Below, one piece after another: positions 60,220 to 62,227 of a stretch of DNA of 62,227 nucleotides (position 1 is its first letter; each line of letters starts with the position of its first letter). A model generated the notes under the pieces. It made no database searches and was not told the DNA's origin. It saw only the letters and a list, made by a program, of their open reading frames with translations. The stretch covers positions 1 to 62,227 of the forward strand of contig NZ_JAODNW010000009.1 in the NCBI RefSeq assembly GCF_025398255.1, in the 5' to 3' direction. The translations under genes and the position numbers were made by a program. The stretch comes from Chelativorans intermedius (GTDB taxonomy: Bacteria; Pseudomonadota; Alphaproteobacteria; Rhizobiales; Rhizobiaceae).

Positions 60220-61053
60220 ATGCGCGTCCCGCGCCGTGCGCTCTATGTTCTCACACCGCTGGCGAGCGTCTTCGCCGGCATGGCCGCAGCCCAGACGCTC
60301 GTGCCGCATCGCGCCGTCTATGACCTCGCCCTTTCCCACGCCGAGGAGGATTCGCAGGTGGAGGCGCTCGACGGGCGATGGGTGTTCGAGTTCTCCGGCT
60401 CTGCCTGCGAAGGCTATACCCTGAAGTCCCGCATTGTCATGCGCTTTGACACCACGGAGGGGCCAAGGCTCGTGGACCAGCGCGTTACCAGCTTCGAGGA
60501 TGCGGCGGGCGAGACGCTGCGCTTCGTGACGCGCTCCTACATCGACCAGGAGCTTGACAACGAGGTGAAGGGCACCGCGCGTCTTGAAGACGGGAGTACG
60601 GTGGTGGACTACGAGGCGCCGGAGGAAACCCGGCGCAGCTTTGGCCCGACGCTGTTTCCGACGGCACAGATGCGCGAACTCTTGGAAAGGCTCCAAGCCG
60701 GAGAACATTTTTACGAGACCGCCATCTTCGATGGTACGGAGTTTGCCAAGCAGGCGGTGATGGTGTCCGTCGTGGTGGGAAAGGCGAGACCCGTGCCCGC
60801 CGACGATATCGAGCGCCCGGCGCTCGGCCGGCTGGCCGAGGAGTCCTTCGTGCCGGTGACGGCAGCCTATTTCGACGGGGACGCGGCCGATGGCGAGGAG
60901 ACCAGCGACTATAATGTCAGCTTCAAGCTTCACGAGAGCGGCATTCAACGCGACATGGTGATCCGCTACGCCGACTATGCCATGACGGCAAAGCTGGCGG
61001 ATCTGACCCTCCACGAACCAGATGAGGCGTGCGAACAGGAAGACCGAGAATAG
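60220..61053 (+). CDS. eipB: Cell envelope integrity protein EipB (DUF1849)
   Basis: 277 residues with an N-terminal signal peptide (about 1-24). DUF1849/EipB proteins are periplasmic beta-spiral proteins; in Brucella EipB is needed for cell envelope integrity and has a conserved disulfide. Both cysteines are found here: Cys63 (GSACEGY) and Cys271 near the C-terminus (DEACEQ). GGAG precedes ATG 60220. Strong match to the family. Confidence 0.94.
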   Translation: MRVPRRALYVLTPLASVFAGMAAAQTLVPHRAVYDLALSHAEEDSQVEALDGRWVFEFSGSACEGYTLKSRIVMRFDTTEGPRLVDQRVTSFEDAAGETLRFVTRSYIDQELDNEVKGTARLEDGSTVVDYEAPEETRRSFGPTLFPTAQMRELLERLQAGEHFYETAIFDGTEFAKQAVMVSVVVGKARPVPADDIERPALGRLAEESFVPVTAAYFDGDAADGEETSDYNVSFKLHESGIQRDMVIRYADYAMTAKLADLTLHEPDEACEQEDRE

Positions 61054-61159: not shown

Positions 61160-61237
61160 ATGAACGACAACATTCTGAAAAACGGCCAGAAAATCTTTGC
61201 CGTCGCCCCGATGATGGACTGGACGGAAATTTCTTGA
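61160..61237 (+). pseudogene. dusA: 5' fragment of dusA (tRNA-dihydrouridine synthase A), interrupted
   Basis: The first 22 residues, MNDNILKNGQKIFAVAPMMDWT, are the start of a DusA. Normal DusA continues ...DWTDRHCR; here it goes E-I-S-stop, then unrelated sequence. The fragment stops inside GATGATGGACTGGACGGA (61210-61227), the region used as an attachment site by dusA-directed integrases. The rest of dusA is not in the window. Confidence 0.75.
61210..61227. other. Candidate att core in dusA
   Basis: The 18 bases in which dusA identity ends (GATGATGGACTGGACGGA). Expected to recur at the other end of the inserted element together with the rest of dusA. Confidence 0.5.
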
Positions 61238-61574
61238 ATTTCAACTGGTTGGGAAAGTGCCCGTGCGATTTCCGTGCAGGGACAATGTGAGCCACATGGG
61301 CGCGCACTTTGCGCTTCGGTTGGGCCGGTGACGATGCTCGTTGATGCGCTCCTATCCATGCCGGGTTTAGGAACCGCTCCGCAAGTATCGCGGCCTCGGC
61401 TGCGCCGATCGGGCTCTATCTCGCTTCGTCGCTATCTGGCTGGAGGCTGTCTGAGTTACTTCCTCAACCCCGCTTGAGATCGAAATGGCAACCGGGTTTG
61501 GGTACAAGTGGTGGGTCGGAGTCAAGTTGCGGCTTATGCGTTGTTGCAGGTCCGTAGGGGGGAGAATGCTAGCG
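61238..61574. other. Gene-free start of the inserted element
   Basis: 337 bases between the dusA junction and the LysR gene. GAAATT-TCTTG-AATTTC (61226-61242) is an inverted repeat at the junction. No integrase, transposase or tRNA is seen. ORFs here look accidental. Confidence 0.4.
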
Positions 61575-62153
61575 ATGAATGGAAAACGCATCGGATGGGA
61601 CTGGGAGCCGGATATGCGCACGCTCCGGTGTTTCGTCACGGTCGCCGAAGAGCGCAGCATCACCCGAGCCGCCAATCGGCTCAACATCGCCCAACCTGCC
61701 CTGAGTCGGAGAATCGCCACTCTGGAGGCCGATCTCAACCTCACCCTGTTCGAGCGCTCGGTACGCGGGGTCGATCTGACCCCGAGCGGCAAGATGCTGC
61801 TGAACAGGGCCTATGCGATTTTCAGCCAACTCGCCCAGACCTATCACGATATCACGGCCAGTTCGGAAAAACCTGCGGGCACCGTCGTTGTCGGCATGCC
61901 GCCCACGCCGGGCGAGTTCATCGTGCCGCCGCTCCTGCGCCGCATTGAAGCCGAATTCCCTGAGATCGAGATGCGTTTCCGCGAGGGATTCAGCCGCGAG
62001 CTTGAAGGGCTGCTGCTTAATGGCGAAATCAGCCTTGCAGTCATGCACAATCCACCCGAGCGCCCCGATATTTCGGCGCACGAGCTATTGGTGGAAAAGC
62101 TGCACCTCATCGGCAAGGCCGGTGCGCTGAAACAGGAAACCTACACCCTCTGA
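61575..62153 (+). pseudogene. LysR-family transcriptional regulator, interrupted
   Basis: Start ATG 61575 (with GGGGGGAG upstream) or 61566. Clear N-terminal winged helix-turn-helix: LRCFVTVAEERSITRAANRLNIAQPALSRRIATLE, then the substrate-binding half up to KAGALKQETYTL. LysR proteins are about 300 residues; this one stops at about 190. One reading frame on (+1) continues DLPPAGPSFITRV, close to what a LysR would have at that point, so a frameshift at about 62150 is likely. The window ends before this can be decided. Confidence 0.65.
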
Positions 62154-62227
62154 CCTGCCCCCCGCTGGTCCCTCATTCATAACGAGAGTCTGCAGGTTGG
62201 ATTTGGGTATTCCGGTTCCCCGTCTGG

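Follow-up and report, generated by a model that had tools for sequence, protein, structure and literature searches.

Near the right end of a contig from Chelativorans intermedius, the tRNA-modification gene dusA begins and, after a few codons, changes into other DNA. Was the gene broken there, or was it entered by an integrative element, and where are the rest of dusA and the recombinase? The window considered here, i.e. the whole stretch of 62,227 nt that was analysed, is the complete contig C91 of a 4.18 Mb genome assembled into 101 contigs. Our results mostly uphold the view of 61161-62227 as the junction of the chromosome with a mobile DNA island of a known kind, inserted in the start of dusA and giving this gene a new start. 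With a probability of about 0.9, the window ends in the attL of a dusA-specific integrative element whose opposite end, with the integrase gene, lies on contig C22. The junction is then a normal integration end, with dusA regenerated and the integrase found beside it.

The junction and its counterpart on contig C22

The chromosomal gene left of the junction is eipB (60220..61053, + strand; PF08904, E 8e-66). On the same strand, the dusA ATG at 61161 opens MNDNILKNGQKIFAVAPMMDWT and is followed through 22 codons to 61226, then by EIS and a stop, the 5' remnant (61161..61237) comprising 25 codons before the stop. The break falls inside AVAPMMDWT, which is the published dusA integration site. The DNA beyond 61227 is foreign since its GC content (59.6% in 61228-62150) contrasts with that of 923-nt stretches before 61160 (66.1%, sd 2.3; 0.5% of these are lower). 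This left end of the island (61228..62150, no strand assigned) had no DNA match among the relatives' loci compared. Within the genome, 61230-62227 matched, apart from itself, only the termini of contigs C26 and C1, and this over its final 77 nt. The sole gene recognised in the island part of the window was a LysR-family regulator (61563..62153, + strand; PF00126, E 4.5e-23; PF03466, E 5.9e-17), which is cut by an insertion sequence after about 196 residues; its family matches start near codon 18 and its true start may lie at 61614. The IS end (TGACCTGCCCCC..., 62151..62227, no strand assigned), which we take from its end sequence to be of the IS3/IS407 type, is present in the window over 77 nt. 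The assembler stopped at 62227 because these 77 nt are a repeat that also terminates C1 and C26. A preliminary description had noted a 22-codon dusA start running abruptly into foreign sequence, the lack of an integrase in the first kb of the island and a window ending about 1 kb inside an accessory element. All of this was borne out, by the 61161-61226 frame and the GC drop, by the absence of an integrase from the last kb of the window, and by the succession of foreign DNA (61228-62150) and IS (from 62151).

Contig C22 carries a complete dusA (PRK11815, 511 bits). Its product begins with MYHKSLKNKEKIF-AVAPMMDWT, where the window encodes MNDNILKNGQKIF-AVAPMMDWT, and the gene contains a second copy of the core. 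Around this core, 37 of 40 nt are identical to the attL direct repeat inside the window's dusA (61188..61227, + strand), and these two cores are the only ones in the genome (with at most 2 mismatches). Divergent from dusA lies a tyrosine integrase gene (PF00589), whose MATIVKTKEG start is situated about 160 nt from the core. The order on C22 is dusA, integrase, a gene for a protein of 787 aa and, at the contig end, a left end of the IS. The dusA remainder, the second core copy and the tyrosine recombinase predicted by the preliminary description are therefore all present on C22, and its guess that the integrase would be located at the far end or deeper in is consistent with the position of the enzyme beside the full-length dusA. 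The gene is not lost, however: the island-supplied start makes the C22 DusA full length, in agreement with what is published for this class of elements. Since the rest of dusA exists on C22, a simple deletion that would have left no continuation anywhere in the genome is out.

The choice of dusA, at its 5' part, as a target of tyrosine integrases agrees with the main texts of two publications (PMC4482086 and PMC8409611). The main text of Farrugia et al. 2015 (PMC4482086) reports dusA-specific islands and integrases (DAIs) in more than 200 bacteria, Alphaproteobacteria included, although the name Chelativorans does not occur there. According to this text, insertion takes place at a single position of the dusA 5' end, between imperfect 21-bp direct repeats, a new dusA start is supplied and the original one is left as a remnant; the islands range from 4.8 to 185 kb with variable cargo, and the integrase is their only universal gene. 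The ends described here resemble these islands, as presented there, in the dusA site, the imperfect repeat, the new start, the remnant and the tyrosine integrase beside dusA, and it is because of this shared anatomy that we consider the window end as attL and C22 as the holder of attR. As to the directionality factor PrtN/RdfN, common in such elements though not universal, the same text gives a PrtN homologue for 60 of 94 dusA islands; the profile PF11112 matched in none of nine genomes here, but also in none of 14 controls. In IMEVchUSA3 and related Vibrio dusA elements, the main text of PMC8409611 describes RdfN together with SGI1-like mobilisation genes. The island parts of C91 and C22, which represent the smaller part of the island, showed neither of these.

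Putative residues of the R-H-R-H/Y pentad in the C22 integrase (R209, H300, R303, H326 and Y335, positions that we assigned ourselves and not via alignment with published DAIs) were invariant in all six aligned relatives. The integrase was compared to DAIs through phage proteins. The best phage match was annotated as a shufflon-specific DNA recombinase, and the integrase of Pseudomonas phage H66 displayed 38% identity over 84%. The main text of PMC4482086 names phage H66 as carrying a homologue. A DAI would be expected to have Rci as its nearest characterised relative.

Candidate arm sites on either side of the core

Two candidate arm-type integrase sites follow the remnant in the window (both + strand): CCCGTGCG at 61260..61267 and TCCGTGCA at 61271..61278, i.e. 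at +55 and +66 from the core reference point 61205. On the other side, the interval from the C22 core to the integrase contains five copies of TCCGTACA. Other loci were scanned with the pattern [N]CCGTRC[RA]; the dusA locus of G152 (L069) did not fit the core pattern and that of G013 (L039) was left out. Loci L075, L076 and L204 entered the analysis through motif or BLAST scans only. A candidate site at +66/+67 was present in all eight left-end remnants (that of the window, two each in G005 and G003, and one each in G004, G124 and G152), and one at +55 in five of them. On the integrase side, the seven dusA genes with an adjoining integrase or integrase relic all displayed three to five candidate sites between -161 and -79. 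Near sites were found at about -160, -142, -131 and -99 in the present genome (G000), G005, G003, G124, G011, G203 and G008, the latter having three of these four, and G000 and G005 having a fifth at -79. On contig C2 of G005, A-type arm sites lie at the same spacings as on C22. One candidate site each was retained in the eroded loci of G001, with an integrase relic of 31 residues, and G014, with a 68-nt match to the integrase start. No arm site was detected at the dusA genes of G002, G004, G006, G007, G009, G010, G012 and G015, and none of these eight had an integrase match upstream (E ≤1, in the stretch examined). Likewise, no candidate arm site was found upstream of the remnant in the window, for which reason this remnant is most likely the pre-insertion start of dusA.

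The conjunction of a core and TCCGTRCA at 28-56 nt was recorded in 5 of 394 family genomes (a count that does not comprise G004), at six distinct places, and all five genomes are integrase carriers; the backward control pattern gave none among the matches listed. The exact signature was absent from G036, G203 and G307, i.e. from three of the seven integrase genomes. Searching for a core with TCCGTRCA at a fixed distance is an easy way to test sequences of this clade for dusA islands, and it also works when a draft assembly places integrase and remnant on different contigs. The literature search yielded no paper on arm-type sites at the dusA attL; the main text of PMC4482086 has no description of them and does not use the word arm, nor does the term arm-type appear in that of PMC8409611. 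Within the literature searched, the geometry of these sites is the only part of the present description not found in print. Their spacing and position suggest that the TCCGTRCA-like sites are bound by the integrase, and the candidate sites lend support to the assignment of the window end as attL and of C22 as attR. It seems somewhat more probable than not that they form a two-sided fixed array in the dusA islands of this alphaproteobacterial clade, in which any dusA start could be read as attB when empty, as attL when a left-end remnant and as attR when fed by an island, and stacks of past insertions would constitute a countable record. The several species of the genus that were examined held one to three dusA records, some with an integrase relic only.

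In the scheme that we propose, the C22 tyrosine integrase, of the dusA-associated family, would insert an element in circular form, by recombination, at the AVAPMMDWT codons of dusA. This would leave the original start of 22 codons beside eipB as a remnant, and the element would bring its own first codons, presumably with a promoter, making the C22 dusA full length again. The integrase would bind the dusA core and two arms of TCCGTRCA-like sites, the far arm being a pair spaced by 11 nt and the arm towards the integrase comprising four or five sites. At a later time, an IS would have entered the island, cut the LysR gene and broken the assembly. The two ends likely belong to one island, and the element may be, or may once have been, able to excise.

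Competing readings of the junction

The most serious competitor, although an unlikely one, is a stack of islands, in which the window end would be the attL of an older island and the C22 integrase would come from a younger, adjoining one. Such arrangements are indicated in genus-mates. Three cores in G005 (C44:71550, C44:57709 and C2:22806) probably represent stacked islands with their remnants, and in G003 dusA is accompanied by two remnants (C72 and C75), one of which is preceded by GTGTGCA-type sites as if it had been supplied by an island. In the present genome, a stack is made possible by unmatched IS flanks (see below) and by the site types, the far sites in the window being of the G type (TCCGTGCA) and the near sites at C22 of the A type (TCCGTACA). 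Yet G005 itself combines an A-type integrase side with G-type remnants, like the present genome, and mixed types may therefore be normal. Moreover, a second island should have left a third core unless this one diverged or was deleted, and it is because only two cores were found that a single island is favoured.

Truncation of dusA by a simple deletion or chromosomal rearrangement, without any island, is very improbable. It draws some credit from the fact that the adjacency of eipB and dusA is itself a rearrangement, as in all six genus-mates tested (G003, G004, G005, G006, G010 and G011) eipB is followed by rpsB, which here lies on contig C80, beside an ABC permease gene. The preliminary description had taken eipB for the ancestral neighbour of dusA, but this order was encountered in no relative examined: the roughly 1.5 kb preceding dusA contained no eipB in the 28 relatives' dusA loci compared (out of 29, without L048), and no dusA core adjoined eipB in any of eight relatives' eipB loci. 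In view of the position of rpsB after eipB and of these dusA loci, eipB-dusA was rejected as the ancestral order. The eipB stretch examined in five family members from other genera (L081-L085) did not include rpsB. The break point of this rearrangement falls within the 107 nt separating 61053 from 61161, which is upstream of the dusA start and not at the core. A truncation without an island is further contradicted by the complete dusA with island-type start and integrase on C22, by the coincidence of the break with the published integration site and by arm sites at conserved distances. The even less probable idea of an assembly chimera at the contig end could invoke the IS repeat in which C91 stops, a typical assembly break, but the junction between dusA and island lies 923 nt before the IS and its core and arm geometry is that of seven other remnants.

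Two side observations concern the chromosomal surroundings. The segment 61054-61160 holds the break point of a chromosomal rearrangement for which no link to the island was established. The idea of the ABC permease gene beside rpsB as a former neighbour of dusA found no support: in G004, G010 and G011, its distance is about 0.5-0.67 Mb to rpsB and 0.6-0.84 Mb to dusA.

A direct join of C91 and C22 through a single IS copy, as judged by target duplication, was not borne out: the 4-bp flank is GAGG at C91 and GAAT at C22, and GAGG was matched by none of the seven IS left ends found. One simple IS copy may thus not be what joins the two contigs. A single IS family is behind at least ten contig ends (C91, C22, C2, C11, C14, C19, C25, C37, C1 and C26). 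Among the IS ends found, matching 4-bp flanks were seen only at C37 and C1, which share CCGG; this scarcity suggests IS-linked rearrangements or missed ends.

Two loci of genus-mates deserve mention in their own right. The remnant on C72 of G003 (C72:16850, L199) is followed by a far arm site belonging to one integrase type and preceded by GTGTGCA-type sites belonging to another, such as occur elsewhere at loci of this integrase family. It has the appearance of a start that one island had supplied and a second island then displaced. In G004 (C1:47018-64276), dusA and a remnant with similar upstream sequence lie 16 kb apart, and no integrase was noticed among the long frames between them; this pair is possibly an integrase-less stacked element.

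Related islands and their cargo

The integrase was found at E ≤1e-60 in 7 of 297 family genomes, the present one included, and G003 carries it too. Named genomes contained at least 80 integrase loci, at the top of which stood Nitratireductor luteus SC-ST17 (99%) and Chelativorans xinjiangense lm93 (87%); in the dusA island of the former (L101), the integrase is 99% and the 787/788-aa neighbour 93% identical to those on C22. At 63 of the 80 listed loci, the strand opposite the integrase gene contained a DusA core at a distance of 129-252 nt; at one of these (L117), only 17 codons separate core and stop, which makes it a further remnant. At the other 17, the 1.5 kb around the integrase contained no core. 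At two of them (L113 and L172) the match begins less than 400 nt from the locus start, and the remaining ones possibly use other target genes.

The gene for the 787-aa protein adjoins the C22 integrase (L015:7529-9892). Its product had no family match in Pfam/NCBIfam (E ≤0.001) or PHROGs (E ≤0.01), and a scan of viral contigs revealed no relative. Relatives occurred in 208 plasmid records, of which 177 belong to Rhizobium, Sinorhizobium or Agrobacterium; 88 of the 208 had one place covering at least 80% of the protein, and the full-length relatives among the matches listed were either annotated as hypothetical protein or unannotated. By eye, the protein displays an R...HxxR...Y arrangement like that of a divergent tyrosine recombinase, and Pfam Phage_integrase matched two of seven homologues (best E 0.015). 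Profile comparison returned nothing (probability 0.5%) and a single-sequence fold of the C-terminal 259 residues reached a mean pLDDT of 47. A divergent tyrosine recombinase is thus a possibility that these results support weakly.

The preliminary description regarded the element as the most likely place near the window for a new system. In the related islands examined, cargo of known kinds is accompanied by genes without match, none of which shows what the window's island carries. On contig C2 of G005, which does not reach the far boundary of the stretch, the genes after the integrase and its 787-aa neighbour encode a ThiF/E1-like protein with JAB, a serine recombinase, a TOTE primase-helicase and a haem dehydratase, all absent from the island parts of C91 and C22. 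Beside one of the left ends of G005 are situated a LysR gene, an ABC transporter, an aminotransferase and a PEP-mutase family protein. The dusA island of G124, of which both ends are known, measures 17 kb and encodes an SMC-like ATPase and a protein of 2148 aa. The first 983 residues of the latter (L068:3651-10097) match Avs3a (E 1.5e-174), and its remainder is without PADLOC match.
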